Positions 1,630 through 33,230 of a DNA stretch of 33,310 nt are shown here, in pieces. The position numbers and the translations under genes were made by a program. The stretch is from positions 1 to 33,310 of the IMG/VR virus record IMGVR_UViG_3300037222_000056; one strand, 5' to 3'. The notes beneath the pieces are model-generated. The model searched no databases and was not told the origin of the DNA. It worked only from the letters and a program-made list of their open reading frames with translations. The first letter of the stretch is position 1, and each line of letters opens with the position of its first letter. The DNA comes from a virus.

Positions 1630-3044
1630 GGTCTTTGGATTTCTCTGAATGTTGCGGTAGCCCGGTCGAAATTGAGCCCTACCCTCGAGGTTCCATCGTC
1701 CCGCCCTTTGGCTTGGATGGCGTTGACATAGAACGATGGCTGCTCTTTGACCCGTGCGTTTTCGTCCTGCTCTTGGTCGTTTGTCGGGTTCGTCGCCGGT
1801 CTGTGCAGCAAAACCACCTTGTCAGCATCGCTTTCGATCATGCCTGAATCGCGCAGGTCATGCAGTGCGGGCTCGGAATTGTCGTGGGCCGATCCCCGGT
1901 TTAGCTGGGCTAGCAGCATCACGCAAACATCTTCTGATTGTGCCAAAATCTTGAGCGCCCGCGTGATCCGTGCGATTGCCTCCGGCAGCTTCATTGCATA
2001 GGTTCCGACCGCATCGGACATAAGATTGAGCTGGTCGACGATCACAAGCTTGAGTGGCCTGCGGACCTTGAGCGCCCGCACCTTGGCGACCACCGATGCC
2101 GCTGTTATGACTGGATCTTCTGCCACATGCAACCCTGTTATCTGTTTGAGATCGTGTAAATTGCGGATGAAATGCGCGATGTCTGCGGCGCTTGCTTGAC
2201 GCTGTTCAATCGACTTAAACGACACTCCAGAACGGGTTTGCGCCAAAGACAATGCCAGCCTCTTACTCTTCACCTCAAGCGTCAGTATAAGCACTCCGTC
2301 AGCATTTCGTGCATTGGCTACAGCGACGGCTCTGGCGAGCGAGCTTTTCCCTGTGCTGGGCCGGCCTCCTATAACCACGAGTTGACCGGTGCGGGGTTTC
2401 CCGAAGTATCGGTCGAGATCGGAGAACCCCCATGTCAACTCATCAGCCAGCGGAGCCGGAGAATTAGCAAGCTGTTCCGTGTCAGAGATTGCGGCGGCAA
2501 TTGCGTCGGCCCATTTCACTGATTGCGCACTTCCATCAGTCTGAAGCGCGAGTAGCGAGTTTGTCACTCCAGTCATGAGCCCCGGCAAGTCGCCGGTGTA
2601 TGCAAAGCAATGCTCGACGGCCGCGGTTCCAACCTTTATCAGCTCTCGCAATGTGTGCAGTTCCTTTACCTTCTCGATAAAATAGCACGCCTGCGCGGTT
2701 GTCGGCACTCTTCCGGCAACCTGGAATAAGTAAGCCCATCCGCCCACAGCTTCGAGCTGCTGGCTGCTTTTAAGCTGTTCTGCAACAACCTCAATCGTGA
2801 TCGGTGGATGATTCGCAAAAACATCCCCGATTGCATCGAAGATGATTCGGTTCGCGGGCAAATAAAAGGCGGACGGAGAAAGCCGTGCGTCGATGGACTT
2901 GGAGTAAGTATCGCTCCCGTCTAGCAGGCAGCACGAAAGCAGGTATTCTTCCGCCTCAATGCTATGCGGGGGAGCGCGACCAATAGCGGCAATGGGTAGA
3001 GATTGAAAATCAGGTAGTGGGCTACTTTGACTTTGGGATTTCAT
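1626..3044 (-). CDS. dnaB: Replicative DNA helicase, DnaB type
   Basis: This 472-residue protein has the full DnaB layout. An N-terminal helical domain (about residues 25-150; PHSIEAEEYLLSC is the typical start) is joined by a linker to a RecA-fold motor domain. Walker A is GGRPSTGKS at 226-234, Walker B is LKLVIVDQLNLM at 331-342, followed by LLAQLNR and LRDSGMIESDAD, the segment that in DnaB enzymes helps sense ATP state. It should unwind DNA 5'-3' as a hexamer at the phage fork. It follows the UDG-like gene after 84 bp, and its start lies inside a 14-bp inverted repeat (3013-3133). No separate loader or primase was recognised, so the DUF1376 protein upstream may take the initiator or loader role. 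Confidence 0.93.
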   Translation of the reverse strand: MKSQSQSSPLPDFQSLPIAAIGRAPPHSIEAEEYLLSCCLLDGSDTYSKSIDARLSPSAFYLPANRIIFDAIGDVFANHPPITIEVVAEQLKSSQQLEAVGGWAYLFQVAGRVPTTAQACYFIEKVKELHTLRELIKVGTAAVEHCFAYTGDLPGLMTGVTNSLLALQTDGSAQSVKWADAIAAAISDTEQLANSPAPLADELTWGFSDLDRYFGKPRTGQLVVIGGRPSTGKSSLARAVAVANARNADGVLILTLEVKSKRLALSLAQTRSGVSFKSIEQRQASAADIAHFIRNLHDLKQITGLHVAEDPVITAASVVAKVRALKVRRPLKLVIVDQLNLMSDAVGTYAMKLPEAIARITRALKILAQSEDVCVMLLAQLNRGSAHDNSEPALHDLRDSGMIESDADKVVLLHRPATNPTNDQEQDENARVKEQPSFYVNAIQAKGRDDGTSRVGLNFDRATATFREIQRP

Positions 3045-3133
3045 TGCGGGGACGAGTGGCTAAAGTGGCTTCGATGAAAACGACTCTGAAGAAACAAAGG
3101 GCTTCGCGACGCAACGGTGAGTAGCCCACTACC
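3013..3133. repeat. 14-bp perfect inverted repeat around the dnaB start
   Basis: GGTAGTGGGCTACT at 3013-3026 is the exact reverse complement of 3120-3133. The 93 bp between the arms contain the helicase ATG (3042-3044). One arm holds the stop codon of the UDG-like gene and the other encodes helicase residues 7-11. On a minus-strand transcript the arms would form a long-range stem with the start codon in its loop. Confidence 0.8.
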
Positions 3134-3845
3134 GTCCATTGCGAACCAATCCATGAATCCCTTCCCGGAACGCATTTGCTCCACCCATTGATGGATGGCG
3201 AACCGGAGCCAGGGTCGGCACCCGGAGTTGCAACAACGTCCGCGCGGCAACCTGCCCGACCGGCACTACAGGCACTCCCGAGAAATATTCGATCACTGCT
3301 CGCAAGCAAGACACACCAGAATCCACTTCACTGCGCGTCGGCGTGCGATTCGACATGCGCTCGTCGGGCTTGTGCGGATGCCACGCGAACGCGTTCCAGA
3401 GCACAGTGCGATCCGCAAGCTCGAATTCTCGAAGCGTGCGCCAAACGATCGTGGCGGACGGCTCACACCAAGGACGTTCGCGCGTCGTCAGGCGAAACGC
3501 GCTGGACACCCGAGGGATCGCCCCATCCATAATCAGTTTCTCATTGGTGAATGGCACGCCCGAGAAATGGCACCCCTGGTAGCCAGGTGCTTCCCCAACC
3601 AGAATCATTGCCGGCTTGCAGTCGAAGTGGGCACGCAAGCGAGCGACGCGACCGCCGGCACCCCCCGCGAGGGCGTCCATCGGGTCATCCTCGCGCCATG
3701 GGTTAAACACGTGCGGCGACTGGAATGACTGAAGCAGTTCAATGAGTCGGTCCATTCGAGAAAAGCGTTGCGGGGCATTATCCCAAGGTTGGCGGCCACT
3801 TTGACGGCTCGAAAGAATTTGTGCGAGAATTGCGTCGGCAATCAC
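3129..3845 (-). CDS. Uracil-DNA-glycosylase-superfamily protein
   Basis: The 238-residue frame starts with GTG at 3845. An ATG at 3755 (residue 31, MDRLIELLQSF) is an equally good or better start, giving 208 residues. Motifs fit the UDG superfamily (family 4/5-like): ILVGEAPGYQGCHFSGVPFT at 81-100 (GEAPG motif I), a WNAFAWHP segment at 150-157, VVPVGQVAARTL at 193-204 and HPSMGGANAF at 217-226 in the motif II position. UDG enzymes excise uracil from DNA; related phage proteins can instead act in nucleotide or recombination functions. It lies in the replication block between the DUF1376-type protein and the helicase. The exact substrate cannot be read from sequence. Confidence 0.72.
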   Translation of the reverse strand: MIADAILAQILSSRQSGRQPWDNAPQRFSRMDRLIELLQSFQSPHVFNPWREDDPMDALAGGAGGRVARLRAHFDCKPAMILVGEAPGYQGCHFSGVPFTNEKLIMDGAIPRVSSAFRLTTRERPWCEPSATIVWRTLREFELADRTVLWNAFAWHPHKPDERMSNRTPTRSEVDSGVSCLRAVIEYFSGVPVVPVGQVAARTLLQLRVPTLAPVRHPSMGGANAFREGIHGLVRNGR

Positions 3846-14695: not shown

Positions 14696-14778
14696 AAAGT
14701 GGTAGTCGCCGCCAGCAGCGCTGTAATCGCGAGACAGGCGAGTAAACAGGCTGCGTCGGCGAGGGTGAAGCGGATCAT
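14692..14778 (-). CDS. 28-residue membrane micropeptide
   Basis: ATG 14778 overlaps the fibre-gene stop (TGA 14775-14777), and its TGA (14692-14694) overlaps the ATG of the holin-like gene; both overlaps are ATGA. The product MIRFTLADAACLLACLAITA plus eight more residues is nearly all hydrophobic, long enough for one membrane helix. It fills exactly what would otherwise be a 79-bp gap in a tightly packed operon. Possible roles are a lysis regulator or an antiholin-type subunit, by position only. Confidence 0.55.
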   Translation of the reverse strand: MIRFTLADAACLLACLAITALLAATTTL

Positions 14779-16715
14779 GAGCGTTTCCTGAAGTAGGCTG
14801 CGGTTGCCATGGCGAGCGCTAGTCCGGCCAGTCCACGGGCGAACCAGTCGGCTTGTGATCGCTGGTCCAGTTCCTTAACGGCGTTTACGATAGCTGCGAG
14901 AATCGGGCGGTCATCAAGACTCGCCATTCCGTCCGGGGAGTCGTGGAACACGGCATTGGGAATCAGCGGCTCAACGTCCTGCGTGTAGAATCCTGCGCGA
15001 GTAAGGTGCTTCGGGTCAGCTTTGAAATCGTAAGTGACGGGGTGAAGCTGGCAGATAGCGTCGAGGCCGGTAGTATAGTCCCCGTGAGGATTCTTGGCTC
15101 GCTTGTCTGAGGCTGACGTAACCACACCTGAAGCAGACGTTAAGGCACCCGTTGCAAGGGCAGTGAGTTTCAACGTGCCTGCCGGAATCACCGTCTGCGT
15201 CGTGCTGGAGTTTCCGATGGTCGTTGTGTTGGTTCCGTTGCCAACAGCAGAGTATCCTATGACAACCTCGTTTGAATTTCCGCTGGCGGATGCCTCTGCC
15301 ATATATCCCAGGTAAAGTGAGTTGGACGATGTGACGTTTGCTGTGCTTCCGCCGGTGATAAATCGTCCTGCGTCGAAACCGACTGCGGTATTGTTGCCGC
15401 CGGTTATGCTCGCCATCGAATAGAACCCGACCGCCACATTTGCAATGGCCGCAGTCTGCGCCGCCAAGGAATTCATGCCGATTCCGATATTATATGACCC
15501 GGTGGTGTTCGCCAGCATGGAGCTTACTCCCAACGCCACGTTGTCCGCGCCAGAAGTGTTCGCTGTCAAAGATTGCTGCCCGACTGCGGTATTGGTCGCG
15601 CCGGTATTCGCTCCAAACATGGACTGAATACCGATGGCCGTGTTGCCGTTCACGCCCAATCCGCCGTAGTATGCTTGGTATCCCAGAGAGGTGTTACCCG
15701 TTCCAGTCGTCTCGTTGGCACTGGCGTCCGTTCCGACTGCAGTGTTGCCAGTCCCAGACGTAAGCGCGGCCAAAGATTGATAGCCAACAGCGACGATGCC
15801 GGAAACGGTCGTGAGTGTTTGCCCTGACTGGTATCCAAGCAACGTATTGTACCCCCCCGTTGTGATTGAGTCTCCAGTTGCCCCTCCGACAGCCACGTTC
15901 CATTGGCCAGTCGTAATTGCATAGAGTGCGCTCTCGCCCAAGGCTGAGTTGTAATTTGCCGAGGTTGCCTCGTGCATCGCTTTGAAGCCTATTGCCGTGT
16001 TCGACGTGCCGGTGCCTCCCGTGGTTGCGATGCTGTGAAATAGCGCCTCCTCACCGACCGAGACGTTGTTCGTCCCCGTGGTGATAAGATGCTGTGCCCC
16101 CTCGCCCACTCCTACATTCCAAGATCCCGTGGTGTTGTTGACAAGAGCAGCATAACCGACCGCCGTATTGCTTCCTCCCGTAGTGTTGTACGTCAGTGCC
16201 CACGCGCCGACCGCCGTATTGTCGACGCCAGAGGTGTTCGTTATGAATGCGTTCGGGCCAAGAGCTGTATTGAAGTAGCCGCTCGTATTCGCAAGGCCAG
16301 ATAGGTAGCCCAGAAAGGCGTTCTGAGTGGAGCCAATGGGTGTGTACCCGCCGGTACTGTTACCCTCGGCGATCTGCCCCGCGCTCGGTGCCGGCGAGGC
16401 AAGGGAGGCGAGGACGTGGGAGTTATTCGTAACGTTCGTGATCAGCGCACCCGTCGAGTCCACCTGAAGGAACTGAGGGCTACCAGTTGAATCAACTGCG
16501 ATTGCCTCGCTATCTCGCGGCGCTGGAATCGAACCGCCAAACCCGAATCCGGTAGCCAGAATCGAAGGGATAAGATTCAGCGAAGAATCGACCTGCAAAA
16601 ACTGAGGGTGCCCGTATTGGTCGACCGCCACACCCATAAGATCACGCGGCGCGGGCGACGCGCCAAAAACGACAACGGGGAGAAAAAATGCGAGTAGTGA
16701 TATGATGCGTTTCAT
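14775..16715 (-). CDS. Tail fibre with adhesin-head repeats and peptidase-S74 chaperone domain
   Basis: The 646-residue protein begins with an apparent Sec signal peptide: KR, then a hydrophobic core (ISLLAFFLPVVVFG) and ASPA. Residues 20-49 and 63-92 are a duplicated unit (PAPRD...PQFLQVDS). Residues ~146-500 are about 14 repeats of the NTAVGYAAL type, like trimeric adhesin head repeats. The C-terminal S74 intramolecular chaperone starts at SDKRAK (Ser536-Asp537, the expected self-cleavage site) and includes PVTYDF, AGFYTQDVEPLIPNAV and AAIVNAVKELDQ. After it comes a hydrophobic segment (627-641) and RKRS. Trimerisation and self-cleavage are family knowledge. The signal peptide and tail anchor are unusual for a phage fibre. 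ATGA overlap with the upstream fibre gene. Confidence 0.85.
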   Translation of the reverse strand: MKRIISLLAFFLPVVVFGASPAPRDLMGVAVDQYGHPQFLQVDSSLNLIPSILATGFGFGGSIPAPRDSEAIAVDSTGSPQFLQVDSTGALITNVTNNSHVLASLASPAPSAGQIAEGNSTGGYTPIGSTQNAFLGYLSGLANTSGYFNTALGPNAFITNTSGVDNTAVGAWALTYNTTGGSNTAVGYAALVNNTTGSWNVGVGEGAQHLITTGTNNVSVGEEALFHSIATTGGTGTSNTAIGFKAMHEATSANYNSALGESALYAITTGQWNVAVGGATGDSITTGGYNTLLGYQSGQTLTTVSGIVAVGYQSLAALTSGTGNTAVGTDASANETTGTGNTSLGYQAYYGGLGVNGNTAIGIQSMFGANTGATNTAVGQQSLTANTSGADNVALGVSSMLANTTGSYNIGIGMNSLAAQTAAIANVAVGFYSMASITGGNNTAVGFDAGRFITGGSTANVTSSNSLYLGYMAEASASGNSNEVVIGYSAVGNGTNTTTIGNSSTTQTVIPAGTLKLTALATGALTSASGVVTSASDKRAKNPHGDYTTGLDAICQLHPVTYDFKADPKHLTRAGFYTQDVEPLIPNAVFHDSPDGMASLDDRPILAAIVNAVKELDQRSQADWFARGLAGLALAMATAAYFRKRS

Positions 16716-18610
16716 GTTGCTGATCCTTTTACGATTGCAAAGTTGATGACGATTGCTCCGGTCTCTGCGGTCGCGGCGTTTAGGTTTTTGACTGAGATGT
16801 TGAAGCTGCCGGCTGCGACCGCCGAGACATATGCGATTGTGTCCGCATTCACGGCACCCGACGCGATTGCGAGGTGCGGAACGTCAACGGCGGCGACCGT
16901 AGAGTCCGTGACGGTGAATGTCGCCACGGCTGCGACTGCGAGCGAAGCGGAAGACGTTGTAATCTGCCCGCAGGTCTTGTTGATCGTTACGCCCGTGGTC
17001 CGGTTTGTCGTTTGCGTCACCGTGCTGCCAGCTCCGCCGCCGTAGCCGATTCCGCCGGTGCCGAGGCAGCGGATGCTGCTCGATGCCTGCACACTCAGGA
17101 ATCCACCCGCCGCGAGCGCATTGCAGTAAATGACGACATTCCAAGCCGCCCCGTCGTAGAGCAGGATGATTGTGTCGCCCTGTAATTGGAGCTGATAGGT
17201 CGCCGGCGAGGTGATGATCGTGTAAGCCGAGCCGTCCGACTTCTGGATTGCGCACATCCATCCGGCTCCGATCCCAGAGGACGGAAGCGTCACCGTTGCC
17301 GCACCGCCAGAAGCCGAGAGCGAAACCAATTGCCCCTCGTTTGCGGCGGTCAAAGTTTGGTTCCCTGAAAGCGCCGTGATGGAAGAGAACAGGGTCGCGA
17401 GATTCGCTTTGCTCGTGAGGGTAGAAGCGAGGCCGGCGAGATTACCGACCGCGGCGAGCAGATGTCCGCTCTCGAACGCGAGTTGCCATGCTGTGCCGTT
17501 GAACTCGACCCAAACGACGTGCGGCGTTCCTGTCCCGTCTGTGGTGATCGTGTCTAGCAACGTGCCGCCGCTTGTGGCGTTCCGCACCTGCAGGACGATT
17601 GCTGCCGTCGCGGGAGTGGTGATGGATAGTTGCACGAGAGCGCCTGCCGCCGGGCTTTGAGATGTCAGAATGGAAAGCGTCCGCGTTCCCGCGGCCCCGG
17701 TCACCGTCAGAATCGACGTGTGAAGCCGCGACGATGACGGCGGCGAGATGTTGGTGTTCCCCGTTGCGCTCGACGTATCGGCGCTCGACGTGAAATTGTT
17801 CAGCCCAAGGACGGCCGCGCTCAATGCTGCCACGGTCGCCAGCGCCGGGTAATTCGTGCCCGCGTAGCTTGACGGGTTGATCAGGCTGTAATTGACCGTG
17901 CAGGCCGCCGCAGCGTAGGTCACGGAGTTGGACAAAGAGTCGAAAACCGTGATCTGGAAAGTCTCGTTGATCACAGACTGCGCCGCCGCGTCGAAAGCTT
18001 GGATCATGGCCAGCGTCGCCATGGAAAGCTTGCCCGTCCATCCATTCGTGATCGTCGTCCAAGTGTTCGCGAAGCTGATAGGAGCCTGTTGAAGCGCCAG
18101 GAGCTGCACGCAATTGACTCCGGCCCCGCCGGCCGTGGTGATGGCAACGGTTATCGTCGACGCAGGTGTCAGCCCGGAGAAGTTGACCGTAACCGCAGTT
18201 TCAGCCGTGCCGGCCATCGATCCGGCGAACGTGATCACGTAATACTCGCCCGGGACTCCCGTGATCAGCGCGTTGCCTGCCCCGACGCTCGTGAGCGCTT
18301 GAAATGCCGACTGCACAACCGCGAGGCTGGCGTTGAAGGCCAGCGCGGACGTTGTGTAGCCGCCGAAAGAGATTGTAAACGTCCCGCCTGTCGGAAACGC
18401 AAACGATCCGATGGCGATGTTTGGGGTATAGGAGCTATCCCCCGACCATGGCGCGTAGTTGCCCAGCCCGTCGCAAAAATAGAGGTCGAAACTCGGGTTG
18501 TCTCCAAGGACAAACTGGGGGAGATCGACCGGCGTCATGTCTGAGACGCTGCGGACGAAGGCCGATGACAGGGACGTTGCTGCGGTGTTTACGAACAGGT
18601 TAGTTGCCAT
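16712..18610 (-). CDS. Long tail-fibre or baseplate-adhesin-like protein
   Basis: This 632-residue Thr/Ser/Ala-rich, beta-predicted protein has few charges. The N-terminus (about 1-110) contains DNPSFDLYFCDG and SYTPNIAIGS, which look like an attachment domain. Residues 110-260 include AETAVTVNFSG-type strands and a helical segment LSMATLAMIQAFDAAAQ. The rest alternates strands with no enzymatic motif visible (e.g. ATVTLPSSGIGAGWMCAI). The C-terminus repeats short beta units (ATFTVTDSTVAAVDV). Position after the distal tail genes and before the S74 fibre suggests a fibre shaft or an attachment subunit shared with it. Confidence 0.7.
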   Translation of the reverse strand: MATNLFVNTAATSLSSAFVRSVSDMTPVDLPQFVLGDNPSFDLYFCDGLGNYAPWSGDSSYTPNIAIGSFAFPTGGTFTISFGGYTTSALAFNASLAVVQSAFQALTSVGAGNALITGVPGEYYVITFAGSMAGTAETAVTVNFSGLTPASTITVAITTAGGAGVNCVQLLALQQAPISFANTWTTITNGWTGKLSMATLAMIQAFDAAAQSVINETFQITVFDSLSNSVTYAAAACTVNYSLINPSSYAGTNYPALATVAALSAAVLGLNNFTSSADTSSATGNTNISPPSSSRLHTSILTVTGAAGTRTLSILTSQSPAAGALVQLSITTPATAAIVLQVRNATSGGTLLDTITTDGTGTPHVVWVEFNGTAWQLAFESGHLLAAVGNLAGLASTLTSKANLATLFSSITALSGNQTLTAANEGQLVSLSASGGAATVTLPSSGIGAGWMCAIQKSDGSAYTIITSPATYQLQLQGDTIILLYDGAAWNVVIYCNALAAGGFLSVQASSSIRCLGTGGIGYGGGAGSTVTQTTNRTTGVTINKTCGQITTSSASLAVAAVATFTVTDSTVAAVDVPHLAIASGAVNADTIAYVSAVAAGSFNISVKNLNAATAETGAIVINFAIVKGSAT

Positions 18611-24917: not shown

Positions 24918-25874
24918 TCAGGCGTACTGAGTGCCGATCAGCGTGCCAGCCCGCGAATTCGTGATCGAAGGCAGCGTGCTCTTAAGCGCACGGATGACGT
25001 TCGATTTCTTGGGCTCGTCGCGATAGCTCTGGATGTTGAAGAGCGGGCCTTCCTTCTCCCAATAGAACGTCCGGCCGATGCCGCCCGCGAGCAACTGTCC
25101 GGGCTGGCAGTTGAGAACGCCGATGTAGGCCGTGCCCCAGATGGAGTTGATGTTCGCGTTCGCCCCCAGCTCTGACTGGTTGACGTAGGCATCAGGGATC
25201 AGCACGTTCTTGATGCCGTGCGACTCGAAAGCCATCTGGATCGTGTTTCCGGTGACGCGGGCGCCGGGATTGACCGAGCCGGCGACGAAGTTGCGCATAT
25301 CCGTGCAGACGCGGATGCGATCGTACACGATGCCGGGGATGACCAGCGTGTTCGGTGCTTCACCCAATCCCTTGACGACGCGGATCGCGGCGAGGATGTC
25401 CTCGACCGGGCTCATCGTGGCGATATTGGCCTGGGTGTAAGCAGTGAGGCTGTTTTTCGCAGTGAAGTTGCCCGTGTTGAACACCGTCGCGGCAACGTCC
25501 ATTTCGTGCGAGCGGAGAAGCCGGTCCGATGCGTCCTTGGCGTAGAACGCCTCGACCGCGAAGTAATCTTCGTAGGTCAAGGTAATCTCGTCAGGCAGAA
25601 GAACCTCTTCTCCGACCTGCTGGAGTGTGGCAGTGAGGTCGCCGATTGCGCCCTGGCGGCGGTCGAAATTCGCGCCGGGAGTGCGTTTCTTGCCGGTCGC
25701 CCGCATCAGGTCGCCCTGTGCAATGGTGATCTTTGGGACGTGCAGGGTGAGCTGCTTCGAAGGAGCCGGCGGAAGAATCCTGAGCCCGACGAACTGGTCG
25801 GCATTGGTCGCGCCTTCAGTGATCAGGTCGGAAAGTTCCTCGCGGGGAGCTGCAACTGTATTTTGGTAGATCAT
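24918..25874 (-). CDS. Major capsid protein (lambda E-like, HK97 fold)
   Basis: The 318-residue protein starts MIYQNTVAAPREELSDLITE, followed by GLRILPPAPSKQ and a central part with YFAVEAFYAKDASDR and DVAATVFNTGNF, then APNTLVIPGIVYDRI and a C-terminal core (IWGTAYIGVL). These are the hallmarks of the major capsid protein E family, about the usual length (lambda E is 341). It should form the icosahedral shell. The decoration protein gene is directly upstream and a terminator directly downstream, the standard order. Confidence 0.88.
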   Translation of the reverse strand: MIYQNTVAAPREELSDLITEGATNADQFVGLRILPPAPSKQLTLHVPKITIAQGDLMRATGKKRTPGANFDRRQGAIGDLTATLQQVGEEVLLPDEITLTYEDYFAVEAFYAKDASDRLLRSHEMDVAATVFNTGNFTAKNSLTAYTQANIATMSPVEDILAAIRVVKGLGEAPNTLVIPGIVYDRIRVCTDMRNFVAGSVNPGARVTGNTIQMAFESHGIKNVLIPDAYVNQSELGANANINSIWGTAYIGVLNCQPGQLLAGGIGRTFYWEKEGPLFNIQSYRDEPKKSNVIRALKSTLPSITNSRAGTLIGTQYA

Positions 25875-27522: not shown

Positions 27523-29061
27523 TCACTCGGGATTTGCTGGCACCGGCGGTGCACCTGACTGATCCCCGCCGGGCTTTGGGGTTTGATTCGGGAAACGCTT
27601 TGAGATAAACGGCAGGACTTCCTCTATCGGGATTCCAAGCTCCGAGGAAAGCTCCTTCGCCGCCATGAGAACCGCCCGCGCGTTCTTGACGTTCTGCGCT
27701 CGGATGTCGTCCATGTCCCGCCCATTGTCGTTCGCGTATTCGTCAGGCCCGAGCAGACCGGCCTCGATAAGTGCAATGTCAGCCGTCGTCTCGCGCCCGT
27801 AATCGACGGAGATTGTTCGCCCCATGTTCCACGAGCCGGCGAAGCGGGAAAGCGAGAACGCCAGCCCCGGGAATGCCGACAGGTCGAGCAATCCTGAATC
27901 AATCCCTTTCTGGACCATGCGATTTTTCAGCGGATTGAGCAGCGTCCGCTTGAGCTGGCGTTTCTCTTCCTCGAATGTGCGCTCCGCTTTGGAAACGTAG
28001 AACCGCTGAACCACGCCGCCAGTCTCAGAGCGATAAACGAACTCGTAAGGGATTCGGCAACCCACCGCGATGTCCCGTTTCAGCTCGGAAACCACTGGCA
28101 GGAATTGCGCGTTCGGGAAGTCGTTCGGGTACTCAACAATCCCCTCGTCGAGCTTGATGTAGTTCTGCTGCACCCCGTCGACCATGGTCTGAACCGCGCG
28201 CGGGCCAAGGCCGGCGGCGGCATTCGCCCCGGCGGACCCAGGATAGCCGTTTTGCATCGGCCGGCCCTGCTCATTCTTCACAATCGGGAGCTGGGAGGCG
28301 CGCCACTTGATGTTCAGCTTTGAGAACTCGACGATTTGATCGACGTCCATCGCGTGCCGGATGCCGTTGCGGAAAGCGGTCACGCCGTGGTATTGCTCGA
28401 ATCGGAACGGATCGTAGAAGTGGATGAAGGCGTTCGCCTCGACGTCTTCTTGGAATTCGTAGGCATTCAGCTTGGGAAGCCTCTTGTAAATCTGGTAGAG
28501 AACTGGCGCCCCTGTCTTTTCGTCGACCAGTATCCCGTTGTAATTACTCGGCCCGATGTTCGCGCCGACAAGCGGGTTTCCGATGCGGTCCGATGAGTAG
28601 TAAACGACTTTCAGGGAGTCGCCTGAATCGACGATCTGAAACCCGGCCTCTCCGTCGCGCTTCTTCGTGCGGATGGCAAGCCGCGCAATCGTCGAGAGGT
28701 CAAGCCGCTGCGAGAGGTCACAGGCGTCAAACTGCCATTCGAGAAAGTTGCGAATCACCTTGTCCGCATCCGGGTTGCCGGTCGTTGGCAGGTATTTCAG
28801 TTCCCCCACCACGAATGTTTCGAAGTCCGAAAGGATACCTTCGACGAAAGGGAAGTCCTCTTCCATCTGCCGAGCGTACCGGATCAACACGATCCGCTCA
28901 AACGCCTGCCGGAAGTCCTCCGGCGTGCTGAGAATATTCGCCGATGGCCGATTGATCCCCGGCTCTGCTCCGGCATAGAGTTTCATCCGGTCCTTGACCA
29001 TTTGCCGGTCAAGACGCCACTGGCCTGTCATGATGCTGTGCGCGAAGTCTGTGAATGTCAT
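27523..29061 (-). CDS. Portal protein, lambda gpB type
   Basis: The 512-residue protein shows the portal layout: RQAFERIVLIRYARQMEED (stem helices), a DGEAGFQIVDSGD crown strand region and ANAFIHFYDPFRFEQYHGVT, the latter matching the H-x-F-x-P-x-R-x-x-Q-x-R/H-G-V/I segment of lambda-type portals. Then come VSELKRDIAVGCRIPYEF and a C-terminal helical tail with a disordered Pro-rich end (PNQTPKPGGDQ). It should form the dodecameric DNA channel. It overlaps no neighbour; the joiner-like gene ends 5 bp upstream. Confidence 0.88.
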   Translation of the reverse strand: MTFTDFAHSIMTGQWRLDRQMVKDRMKLYAGAEPGINRPSANILSTPEDFRQAFERIVLIRYARQMEEDFPFVEGILSDFETFVVGELKYLPTTGNPDADKVIRNFLEWQFDACDLSQRLDLSTIARLAIRTKKRDGEAGFQIVDSGDSLKVVYYSSDRIGNPLVGANIGPSNYNGILVDEKTGAPVLYQIYKRLPKLNAYEFQEDVEANAFIHFYDPFRFEQYHGVTAFRNGIRHAMDVDQIVEFSKLNIKWRASQLPIVKNEQGRPMQNGYPGSAGANAAAGLGPRAVQTMVDGVQQNYIKLDEGIVEYPNDFPNAQFLPVVSELKRDIAVGCRIPYEFVYRSETGGVVQRFYVSKAERTFEEEKRQLKRTLLNPLKNRMVQKGIDSGLLDLSAFPGLAFSLSRFAGSWNMGRTISVDYGRETTADIALIEAGLLGPDEYANDNGRDMDDIRAQNVKNARAVLMAAKELSSELGIPIEEVLPFISKRFPNQTPKPGGDQSGAPPVPANPE

Positions 29062-29066
29062 GGGCG

Positions 29067-29396
29067 TCAGCCAACGAGGCCGGTCGGAGTACCTGGATCA
29101 CCGCAAGGGGCTTGCTGCCCACCGTAGCGGTTGAAATTGGGGCGGACGTGTTCGACGGGATCGGAGATGCCCAGCTCGTCCGCCAGCCCGTTGATAAGCC
29201 GAATCAGGTCAGCCGTGTCCATCACGGTCAGCCCGTAGCTCTGAGCCGCAGAGCTGCCTTGAATGACTCTGCCGGTCATCCGCTTCAGGTACTCGGCTTT
29301 CGCCGCCGCAAATATTGATGCCCGGTCGTCTCCGTTGAAGACGCCTTTATTCAAGGTGGATGGCATTACCCATAGGTCTGTGTTCACTTGTGCCAC
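29067..29396 (-). CDS. Small head-tail joining-like protein
   Basis: The 109-residue frame starts with GTG at 29396; the next in-frame GTG (residue 4) is an alternative. It includes ASIFAAAKAEYLKRMTGRVI and the sequence TVMDTADLIRLINGLADELG, a helix resembling the ADL helix of gpW-family head-tail joining proteins. It ends in a Gly/Pro tail. It sits just upstream of the portal, as lambda W does. The match is partial. Confidence 0.55.
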   Translation of the reverse strand: MAQVNTDLWVMPSTLNKGVFNGDDRASIFAAAKAEYLKRMTGRVIQGSSAAQSYGLTVMDTADLIRLINGLADELGISDPVEHVRPNFNRYGGQQAPCGDPGTPTGLVG

Positions 29397-29448: not shown

Positions 29449-30936
29449 CTAAAACCCCATAGTCGCCTCGACGCTGGCCATCGTGCCATGGTCCGCATTC
29501 GCGCCGGGTACTCCGTACTTCAACAGGAACTCATTACAGAGTGCGTTGTTGTGGAAGTTCCCCATCACGTCCCGATTCATCAGCCACGGCGACTCGTGCC
29601 GCTCGTGGTAGATCCCTCCGACAATCTCGCCGCCGTGCGTCAACTTGATGAGCAGGCGGAAAACCAAGTCCCAAGACTCGCGCCCCAAAACCATGTCAGG
29701 GAACTTCGCGCCGTGCTTGTCCCACCAGTCGCCAGTGAACGCCACGAGGTCCGTCCCATCGTGAATCGTGCATTCCTCCATGACTTGCGCCTCTGAGACA
29801 AACGGCGTCTCGCGCCTGAAACAGTCCCACCGGCGAGCGAAGCAGGCGCTGGAGCGCGTCACCTGTTCAATCAGCCATCCCGTAAGCCCCGGCGTAAAGC
29901 AGACATCCGCATTTGTCAGAACGATGATGTCCTTTGACTTCGTGAGCTTCGACCGACCGTGCGCAATCATGTCCTGGATGAACGGGAGGTCAACGCGCTC
30001 GCCGATTGACCGGGCATCCCGAGGAAGATAGAGGTTTGTCGGCGCCGGGGTCCAACGGTCTGACCGATATTCCTCAGCCCATGTCACTTTCGCGTTTGTC
30101 TCGCGCCGGGTAGTCTCGGAGTTTTGGACGGTCGAATCGTAAACATGCACGAGCCTAACTGCGGCTTTGTCCGGGGCGCGGATTGCCTCGATGATCTCCG
30201 ATTCGCGCGCCGCGTGCTCATCATAAAAGAACGTCGCGGCGTGCTGCGGGTGCCATGCCGAGCCGTACCAACGCTCGGGCGAACGATTGATGAGCGCGAC
30301 GACGGGAAGGCGCGGGGAAGCCGCGGCGAGGTGGAGAGGCGCCGAGTCTGCCGACACAAGGCAGGCCGCGCGGTCAAACAATCCGATCAAATCGTAGAGC
30401 CGGAAGAGCGGGAATTCCGAAATGTCCACCACGTTCTCAGGGCCGAACTCCTGCCGGATGAGCGCGAGCAACGCCCGCCGGCCCGCCAACGGCGACGATT
30501 TTGCGCCAAGGCTTACGAGGATCTTGCCGGGGTATCGCGCAGCAAGTTGCCTTTCCCTGTCGGATTCTCCGCGCCTGTCGAACTCCAGCGGCAGACGCCC
30601 CCATGGCACGCGGGCGCCGGCATAGCGCCATGACTCCCGGTTGAAGTCGTGCGTGCAATGCCGGATGAACTTGCCGCGCCCGTAGATCGCAGCCGACATG
30701 ATCTCGGCTTCCGGGTGGACCTGCTTTGCCCAAAACATCGCCGCATGGAAATCCTCCCATGAGCCGGTCCAGATCACAGGCTCGACGTAAGACACGCCGT
30801 CGAGCAAGGATGCGAATTGCTCCGCGACCATGAGAATCGGCTTTTGTCCGGTCTCCTTGAACTCGTGCTGCATCAGCGGCAGCAAGTTGATGATGTCGCC
30901 GTAGCGGCCAAGGAGGACGTAGAGTTTGCGGGTCAT
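29449..30936 (-). CDS. Two-domain glycosyltransferase (GT9-like plus GT-A-like)
   Basis: The 495-residue protein has an N-terminal half shaped like GT-B family 9 (ADP-heptose:LPS heptosyltransferase): a start strand with LLGRYGDIINLLPLM (8-22), ILVSLGAKSSPLAGRR (139-154), and the family hallmark SADSAPLHLAA at 195-205. From about residue 263 (VHVYDST) a second domain begins that looks GT-A-like: IIVLTNADVCFTPGLTGWLI at 337-356 (NAD as a DxD-like metal motif), and later WDLVFRLLIKLTHGGEIVGG. It starts 3 bp after terL and is packed in the virion operon, so it belongs to the phage. It could glycosylate capsid or host envelope. Substrate unknown. Confidence 0.68.
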   Translation of the reverse strand: MTRKLYVLLGRYGDIINLLPLMQHEFKETGQKPILMVAEQFASLLDGVSYVEPVIWTGSWEDFHAAMFWAKQVHPEAEIMSAAIYGRGKFIRHCTHDFNRESWRYAGARVPWGRLPLEFDRRGESDRERQLAARYPGKILVSLGAKSSPLAGRRALLALIRQEFGPENVVDISEFPLFRLYDLIGLFDRAACLVSADSAPLHLAAASPRLPVVALINRSPERWYGSAWHPQHAATFFYDEHAARESEIIEAIRAPDKAAVRLVHVYDSTVQNSETTRRETNAKVTWAEEYRSDRWTPAPTNLYLPRDARSIGERVDLPFIQDMIAHGRSKLTKSKDIIVLTNADVCFTPGLTGWLIEQVTRSSACFARRWDCFRRETPFVSEAQVMEECTIHDGTDLVAFTGDWWDKHGAKFPDMVLGRESWDLVFRLLIKLTHGGEIVGGIYHERHESPWLMNRDVMGNFHNNALCNEFLLKYGVPGANADHGTMASVEATMGF

Positions 30937-30939
30937 AGG

Positions 30940-32763
30940 TTATTCAGGTTTTAGAACGCCAGCCATCAGCATCAGGACAACGATCATGCTCTCGCAGTCG
31001 TACAAATGATCCGGGTGGCCACTCACGCAGTACCAGGTCAGCTTTTGAGCACCGCTCGGCTTGACCTCGGATTTCTGCCGATGAGAATTGATGTGATCCG
31101 CGTATTCCGGGCACCACTCCATGATGTCAGACGGAAGCTGCCACTGGTCCGGGGTCTGCCGCAGCCTCGCAAGCAAGTCCTGCACGCGCTGCGAACTCCA
31201 CAGGTAATAGAGCGCGTATGTTCGCCCTGCCTCTGCCGTGCCGAATCCCGTGTCAATCGTTCGCTGCTCCGAGAATAGGAGCCGCTTCCCGTCGTGGAAT
31301 GATTGCGGCCCGTGCGGGAATTCCGTCGTGTCCTGCCCAAGCATCCCGTACCACTGATAAGACGCGCAAATCTCGTCGACCGCCGTCGGATCATGCGCCC
31401 GGTCGGCTCCCACCCAGGGGCCCGGCAACTCCGGGGTGCAATCAGGGATAGAAAGCTCGCGCTGCTTCGCCCGCACCTGGTCCCATTCGTTCAGCCGGCC
31501 GCAATCGATCAACCTCGACTCCCCGTCCTTGGACAGCGCCCGCGCGGCAAACCAACGGTGCGGAATGTCGCCGTGCTTTCCCTGCTGGTTGTCAATCGTC
31601 ATGACGCGAATCCATTCCTTCGCCCACGCGCCCGGCTTCCTCATTTCCGCCCGCGTGTAGCTGCCGAGCGTCAGCGCCTCGTTGACGATGATCGGCCGGT
31701 CCTCCCAGAATTCAACCAGCTCCTCGTTGATGAACCTCTGAAGCTGTTCCATCGCGAAAACGCCGCCCCTCATCGTCATCTTTACCCAAGGTTCAAGGAT
31801 CTGCACCCACGGCCGGCGCCCGATCGCGAAGGCGTTGACGTGCATCGACACGATCTCCGGGTTTGCGTCGGGGTTCTTAGCGACGTACTGGCCGGCCGCG
31901 TTCAGGCGTGCCATCAGGTCATCAGACCAATCGATGCGCGCTTTACAGTGCGGGCACGTTACATGCACGGTCGGCGCGAACTCCGTCAGATCTAGCGATC
32001 CGTTGTCCCGCAGCCGCGCCTTACTCAAGTCAAAATGGATATTGCTCGCAGGGTTACGCCGGTCGAAAACGTATTGGAAAAGCTTCCCGCACGTCGGGCA
32101 CGGATGCGACCATTCGAGTTGATTCCCTGCGCGGAATCGCTCCTCCAATTCAGACCCGACGTTGCCGCCGAGTGATATGTTGATCGTCTTGCGCGTGTCC
32201 CGGAATGCCCGCTGCCGGCTGTGCATCTGGGCAAGGAACGGCGTCTCCCATAGATGCACCTCATCATTGATCTGCACCTCAATGGAATCGCTCTGCCGGT
32301 TGCCCGGGGCCTCGACGCCCTGGATAATCAGAAACGATCCATCGCGGAAGATGATCCGCAGCTTGGTTGTCTCGTGTCGGTTCTCCGAGAACCGCTCGCG
32401 CAACACCCTGCACGCCTTGATAGTCTGATTAAACTTCGTGTCTGAGAACTGCGCGGCCTTCCCGTCCGTCTCCGTGTTGAACTGCATCTTCGCCGGCCAG
32501 TTGACGGCGCGCCACGCCAGGCAGATTTGCGCCGCCAAGGTCTTGCCTGATTCCTGCGGCGGCATGATCGCCGTTATCTCCCGCACCCGCGGCGACCGGA
32601 AGCATCGAAGTATCTCCCGAGTCCATGGCGTGTTTTCGACGGAGTACCGCCCCTTGAATGCCTCAGTGCTGCCAAAGTCGATGTTCTCCGCTGCCCAGTC
32701 CCATATCTCGCGCCGGTCGGGAAGGATAATCAAGGACGCCAGCTTTGCGGCAATCCCGCTCAT
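30940..32763 (-). CDS. terL: Terminase large subunit (gpA type)
   Basis: The 607-residue protein starts at ATG 32763, overlapping the terS stop as ATGA; an open frame 31 codons upstream is only overlap. Walker A-like MPPQESGKT is at 67-75 and the Walker B-like IEVQINDEVH is at 161-170. A zinc element CPTC (222-225) and CPHC (270-273) is typical of the gpA family. The C-terminal nuclease domain carries acidic strands at D391 (TIDNQQ), D454 (GADRAHD) and D589 (HLYDCE). It cuts and packages DNA into the prohead using ATP. This type usually acts at cos sites, so cos ends are expected. Confidence 0.92.
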   Translation of the reverse strand: MSGIAAKLASLIILPDRREIWDWAAENIDFGSTEAFKGRYSVENTPWTREILRCFRSPRVREITAIMPPQESGKTLAAQICLAWRAVNWPAKMQFNTETDGKAAQFSDTKFNQTIKACRVLRERFSENRHETTKLRIIFRDGSFLIIQGVEAPGNRQSDSIEVQINDEVHLWETPFLAQMHSRQRAFRDTRKTINISLGGNVGSELEERFRAGNQLEWSHPCPTCGKLFQYVFDRRNPASNIHFDLSKARLRDNGSLDLTEFAPTVHVTCPHCKARIDWSDDLMARLNAAGQYVAKNPDANPEIVSMHVNAFAIGRRPWVQILEPWVKMTMRGGVFAMEQLQRFINEELVEFWEDRPIIVNEALTLGSYTRAEMRKPGAWAKEWIRVMTIDNQQGKHGDIPHRWFAARALSKDGESRLIDCGRLNEWDQVRAKQRELSIPDCTPELPGPWVGADRAHDPTAVDEICASYQWYGMLGQDTTEFPHGPQSFHDGKRLLFSEQRTIDTGFGTAEAGRTYALYYLWSSQRVQDLLARLRQTPDQWQLPSDIMEWCPEYADHINSHRQKSEVKPSGAQKLTWYCVSGHPDHLYDCESMIVVLMLMAGVLKPE

Positions 32764-33230
32764 AGCTTCCCCAACTCCTGCCCGTATAACTCCAGCACGC
32801 GGTCCACCGAATCGGCGAACATCTGCTGCAATTCCGCCACGCCTTTGCCCTTGCACTTCGACGGCATCATCATTTCGAACTCCTGCCGCAGTGTCGCCGT
32901 CAGCCCTGATTGAGCAGCGGCCAGCACCGGCGTAATTTCTGCCAGGTCCACCACGTCTCTCCGATCTTTCTGCAAAGCGAGAGCCGACCGCGCAACTTCG
33001 ATCTGAAGCTTCTGACGACGCAGCTCCTGAATGTCCGTGCCCTCCATCGCCCGCGTTCCCGTCCCCTGCCTAGTACACCAAGCCAATGCCTGCGAAGTAG
33101 AGTAAAGCCCTTTCTCGTTCGGGGCCGGTGCGCCCGGTTTCGCCATCAATGCCGCCGCTGTTCTGCGCTCGATATCAAGGGCAGTAGCAAGGCCGTTTAG
33201 GGTCAATAAATCGGGAAACTTCTTAGGCAT
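32760..33230 (-). CDS. terS: Terminase small subunit (Nu1-like)
   Basis: The 156-residue protein has an N-terminal winged-helix or HTH part (LLTLNGLATALDIERRTAAALM, then GLYSTSQALAWC), followed by a charged helix (IQELRRQKLQIEVARSALAL) with RRDVVDLAEITPVLA, the coiled-coil and assembly pattern of Nu1-type small terminases. It ends in a helical TerL-binding tail (SVDRVLELYGQEL). It recognises the packaging site and recruits TerL. It is the first gene of the minus-strand block. The start at 33230 leaves 80 bp to the end of the window. Confidence 0.82.
   Translation of the reverse strand: MPKKFPDLLTLNGLATALDIERRTAAALMAKPGAPAPNEKGLYSTSQALAWCTRQGTGTRAMEGTDIQELRRQKLQIEVARSALALQKDRRDVVDLAEITPVLAAAQSGLTATLRQEFEMMMPSKCKGKGVAELQQMFADSVDRVLELYGQELGKL

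Follow-up and report, generated by a model that had tools for sequence, protein, structure and literature searches.

A fused glycosyltransferase gene lies in the late gene run

The window, a 33,310-base IMG/VR virus record, carries on its minus strand terS, terL, a glycosyltransferase (GT) gene, a small joining gene (the joiner), the portal gene, a protease-like gene, a small gene, the major head protein (MCP) gene and tail genes, in that order and reaching to about position 14775 (Table 1). From terS to the tail genes the run is co-directional, and its gaps are mostly shorter than 80 nt. The GT start codon (30936-30934) stands directly behind the end of terL at 30940, which confirms the gap of 3 nt given in a preliminary description of this DNA, whose coordinates are right throughout. 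The same description held that this position is normally occupied only by small joining proteins; this proved true of distant relatives, but here the joiner is retained beside the GT, which is general to the lineage. Hydropathy indicated no membrane segment in the 495-residue GT (max KD19 1.24). The record is probably incomplete, because it is shorter than the 37-41 kb of its relatives. Among its replication genes is one for a uracil-DNA glycosylase superfamily protein (3129-3845, minus strand; PF03167, E 1e-8).

Table 1 Features of the fused glycosyltransferase gene and its neighbours in the window.
Feature	Position	Strand	Basis
terS, terminase small subunit	32760..33230	-	phrog_57, E 2.5e-6
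terL, terminase large subunit	30940..32763	-	PF05876, E 2.6e-28; phrog_15, E 8e-49
Fused glycosyltransferase gene (GT9-like GT-B + GT-A)	29449..30936	-	ORF, 495 aa, ATG start
GT9/heptosyltransferase-type GT-B domain, residues 1-259	30160..30936	-	PDB comparison; family profile matches WaaC in the PDB, E 1e-5
Codon D14, aligned to HepI catalytic base D13	30895..30897	-	Profile alignment; invariant, 16/16
SADSAPLHLAA, residues 195-205	30322..30354	-	D197 = HepI D261, H202 = HepI H266; both 16/16
GT-A domain, residues 260-495	29452..30159	-	Modelled alone; PDB comparison
N-A-D, residues 342-344, DxD-like putative metal motif	29905..29913	-	D344 15/16, N342 14/16
HxxH, residues 444-447, candidate C-His of GT-A core	29596..29607	-	Both His 14/16
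Small joining gene, GT-portal interval	29067..29396	-	Kept in lineage; tblastn 45-52% to relatives
Portal	27523..29061	-	PF05136, E 6e-22
Major head protein (MCP), same late run	24918..25874	-	phrog_1005, E 2e-24

The two halves model as different glycosyltransferase folds

An AlphaFold2 model of the GT, made with an alignment of 16 viral homologues as input, contained two glycosyltransferase folds (pLDDT 87.4, pTM 0.84). As modelled, the protein is a GT9-like GT-B domain joined to a GT-A domain, and Foldseek agreed with both fold assignments made by PDB comparison, for the whole model and for the C-terminal half alone. Thus the earlier description of a fused GT9-like and GT-A-like enzyme between terL and the portal is upheld.

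Compared with the PDB, residues 1-259 matched the Veillonella protein 3tov (Z 16.2), WaaF (1psw, 15.0), WaaC (2gt1, 14.8) and TibC (13.8), and the matches to the first three covered 239-251 residues at an rmsd of 3.8-3.9. Profile alignment to HepI (WaaC) placed the equivalents of D13, D261 and H266 within this common GT-B fold, all invariant when conservation was counted in 16 sequences, and so supported the previous identification of SADSAPLHLAA as a GT9 hallmark. In one HepI study, the D13A and D261A substitutions lowered activity more than 2000-fold (PMC5713226). Pfam family PF01075 matched 13 of the 16 homologues (best E 5e-8) and scored 18.3 bits against the window protein (E 0.0015), below its gathering cut-off of 22; we therefore call this half GT9-like and not a GT9 member. 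Unlike WaaC, WaaF and 3tov, the window domain is shorter, viral, fused to a GT-A domain and sub-threshold for PF01075, and it apparently has no conserved counterpart of HepI Lys192: across residues 139-178, the likely Lys192 segment, no Lys or Arg is conserved in the family. The donor therefore need not be ADP-heptose. TibC and other bacterial autotransporter heptosyltransferases share the GT9-related fold and set a precedent for protein O-glycosylation. In TibC a beta-barrel occupies residues 1-97 (PMC4358343), and TibC aligns from its residue 96 onwards to residue 1 of the model; in contrast to TibC, the window GT has no N-terminal beta-barrel and has an added GT-A domain.

Within the whole model, residues 260-495 matched SpsA, GalNAc-T2 and the heparosan and chondroitin synthases (Z 12-13). 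Modelled alone, the C-terminal half gave a pLDDT of 90.7 and a pTM of 0.90, and GT-A enzymes filled its PDB match list at Z 11-13 (CHPF 13.0, heparosan synthase 12.4, GalNAc-T2 12.4, WrtF 12.3, SpsA 11.8). Its likeness to SpsA (GT2), GalNAc-T2 (GT27), PmHS2, K4CP and CHPF/CHSY3 extends over the GT-A fold with an NxD putative metal motif and likewise the candidate C-His, but identity to these enzymes is only 6-12% and the half has no assigned Pfam family. Motifs were assigned from their order along the fold and from the published GT-A core (PMC7185993), not by superposition; the core motifs of that source were used for the C-His candidate. D396 and D414 are conserved in 16/16 sequences and D423, a candidate for xED, in 14/16. 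The preliminary description had proposed a second domain with an NAD metal motif. The domain is indeed a true GT-A fold by modelling, and D344 is conserved; the motif itself is NxD, not DxD, and we equate the two from its position where a core strand ends and not from residue-level superposition.

Structure prediction had been proposed as a check on both folds; the second domain could have turned out unlike a glycosyltransferase, or the DxD/GT9 catalytic residues could have been lost in all relatives. The second domain is instead GT-A, and the residues are retained: D14, D197 and H202 in 16/16 sequences, D344 in 15/16, and H444 and H447 in 14/16. This bears on the idea that a single half is catalytic while the other serves as a scaffold or regulatory domain. 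Some GT-A folds, such as COSMC, are inactive scaffolds (PMC7185993), and in one homologue (L015) D344 of the C-terminal half is gone, as is the region of the C-His pair. However, both residue sets are intact in the window protein and most homologues, and in another virus (L022) the halves are adjacent separate genes, so we regard a one-sided enzyme as improbable.

The GT is old cargo of the lineage

Terminase- and portal-guided scans together with a GT-guided scan yielded eight related lineages (the window, L002, L003, L004, L007/L014, L010/L011, L013 and L031), with terL 55-65% identical to that of the window. The GT lies between terL and the joiner in 7/8 of them, the window counted. L013 fell outside the terL-scan loci but within the portal-scan loci (as L039), and the count is the same without the GT-guided scan. 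In the remaining lineage, L003, the slot holds only a 130-residue ORF, and the fused GT is therefore not essential to virion assembly. No GT occupies the slot in the more distant viruses L041, L042-L046 and L047 (terL 24-37% identical to the window), which have small ORFs and the joiner only. Acquisition of the GT probably dates to the base of the clade or close to it.

Verrucomicrobia phage P8625, the closest isolate by terL (24%), has the same order of terL, small ORF, portal, protease and coat genes, but where the window has the GT it has a 213-residue ORF without a Pfam match. This slot ORF (gp07; L034 4705-5346) contains HNH-like residues (HVDHIVP, NTQALW), and the slot may receive homing-type genes too.

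Pairwise divergence of the GT correlated with that of terL (r 0.67, 50/5040 permutations) and of the joiner (r 0.69) and weakly with that of MCP (r 0.36, 683/5040); this last value would allow for exchange with respect to the more distal genes. The GT also resembles terL in composition, with GC 61.0% and GC3 77% against 60.2% and 78%. Given the terminase-like composition and divergence that tracks terL, we reject a recent insertion, of which the preliminary description had likewise seen no sign, and the word "inserted" used there holds on an old time scale only. The fused GT is old cargo, common to the lineage and not peculiar to the window phage. In L007, terL and the GT are separated by a 1.6-kb insertion, in which lies an antisense ORF (2928-3374, minus strand) with a weak PadR-like match.

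Other glycan-type genes share the slot

Several siblings carry further genes in the terL-portal interval. A GT17 gene is present there in L031 and L011 (PF04724, E 8e-20 and 7e-28), the L011 copy having one TAG within the matched stretch; L013 has a class I methyltransferase, and L002 an FkbM methyltransferase and a class 3 lipase. FkbM stands upstream of terS in L004. Neither GT17 nor FkbM was found in the window record, whose slot holds the fused GT alone. Because siblings carry GT17 or sugar-type methyltransferases at this position, we take the slot to be a variable glycan-decoration cassette. The lipase of L002 (4504-5397; PF01764, E 4.5e-27), between FkbM and the joiner, is unusual cargo.

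The two-domain architecture recurs in other viruses

When viral contigs were scanned for GT relatives with a pattern from one sequence, there was no match; a scan with a three-sequence alignment recovered 21 viral homologous loci. The GT9-like and GT-A pair is kept by viral contigs that are unrelated in other respects (L012, L015-L024, L026 and L027), with decay in L015 and L017. Five of these (L018, L019, L021, L026 and L027) have about 250 additional residues N-terminal to the pair; in L018, the one tested, the extension is GT2-like (PF00535, 21.7 bits, cut-off 23.3). In L025, DUF5672 replaces the GT-A half. Such modularity speaks for two catalytic units, each autonomous, that act on a shared glycan. 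The neighbourhoods of these distant homologues contain GT2, FkbM and other methyltransferase genes, and in L018 a terminase gene lies less than 3 kb from the GT homologue. The fusion of a GT9-like half to DUF5672 (L025 5941-7506) hints that DUF5672 may itself be a glycosyltransferase.

Searches of 50,697 phage records with the window GT and the distant L026 GT found no relatives (tblastn, E 0.01), and scans of genome contigs found none of the GT or terL; with a pair of short motifs per scan, the latter negatives are weak evidence that relatives are absent. BFVD contained single-domain GT9-like and GT-A viral proteins and no clear two-domain relative, rows covering both halves having an rmsd of about 14-24. 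The window GT had no PHROGs match at E 1; since the family is absent from PHROGs and the window protein is sub-threshold in Pfam, routine annotation would label it hypothetical. Virion glycosylation and GTs encoded by phages are already known, and what is new is the fused GT9-like/GT-A architecture at the terL-portal locus.

A possible role in decorating virions

From two glycosyltransferase folds, conserved catalytic-type residues, a fixed position, a late-operon location and the company of glycan genes, we infer an activity, an order of action, sugars, an acceptor and a benefit. The reading we prefer, which we hold with even confidence, is that a late bifunctional GT glycosylates a tail or capsid protein with two sugars in sequence. 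The soluble protein would be made late in infection and act in the cytoplasm during assembly. Its GT9-like GT-B half, with D14 as catalytic base, and its metal-dependent GT-A half, with D344 and the candidate C-His H444/H447, would act successively, so that one polypeptide would add two sugars to one growing glycan. The GT would form part of a variable decoration cassette in the terL-joiner interval, and the glycan would most likely sit on a virion protein and alter adsorption or the surface properties of the particle.

Late-operon position alone does not fix the target of the GT. A virion protein is our first choice of acceptor because of that position and because the gene keeps its place next to those for packaging. 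Two precedents point the same way: TibC, which is related to GT9, heptosylates proteins (PMC4358343), and in mycobacteriophages the capsid and tail tube proteins are glycosylated by phage GTs (PMC12363180, PMC12691614). The mycobacteriophage enzymes (Che8 gp110, Corndog gp38) have no sequence match to the window GT and are functional analogies only, as phage GTs with virion-protein targets.

The main rival is modification of the host surface late in infection (LPS core, O-antigen or another polysaccharide), by which progeny would be spared debris and infected cells and superinfection would be blocked. Among solved structures, those nearest to the N-terminal half are LPS heptosyltransferases, which are cytosolic, and the GT17, FkbM and other methyltransferases of the slot could edit host glycans, FkbM and GT17 being equally compatible with that role. 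Yet the GT is without a membrane segment, the apparent lack of a conserved Lys192 means that ADP-heptose/LPS-core activity should not be assumed, and no phage integrase scored above the cut-off in the eight lineage records, several of which are fragments, which gives no sign of long-term lysogenic conversion. We consider this role possible but doubtful.

DNA-glycosylating phage GT-B enzymes exist, such as T4 beta-glucosyltransferase, and the GT might likewise glycosylate hypermodified phage DNA. However, its top structural relatives are heptosyltransferases and not DNA glucosyltransferases, it lies in the late structural run and has siblings with sugar-type methyltransferases, and no base-hypermodification enzyme was seen among the early genes sampled, a sample that includes only a minority of the small early ORFs. 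We rank this role as very improbable.

Glycosylation of virion proteins, were it the function of the cassette, would extend beyond mycobacteriophages to uncultured phages, through a single-chain two-fold enzyme whose gene is fixed next to those for packaging, and phage glycan genes could then be sought in the terL-portal interval. More tentatively, the homologues may form a virus-borne assembly-line GT family (GT9-like plus GT-A, with a GT2-like module added in some phages), for which no counterpart emerged here among sequenced phages or cells. Encoded in a dedicated terL-portal cassette, such a family would assemble a methylated oligosaccharide on proteins of the virion. Two late products of the window are rich in Ser and Thr. 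The first (16712-18610, minus strand), a possible fibre of 632 residues without a Pfam match, has 24.5% Ser+Thr overall and 47% in one 40-residue stretch. The second (14775-16715, minus strand), of 646 residues and 21.4% Ser+Thr, ends in a Peptidase_S74 chaperone (PF13884, E 4.5e-9), from which we take it to be a self-processing tail fibre or spike. Both are candidate glycan acceptors, although their composition is a weak hint, fibres often being Ser/Thr-rich anyway.
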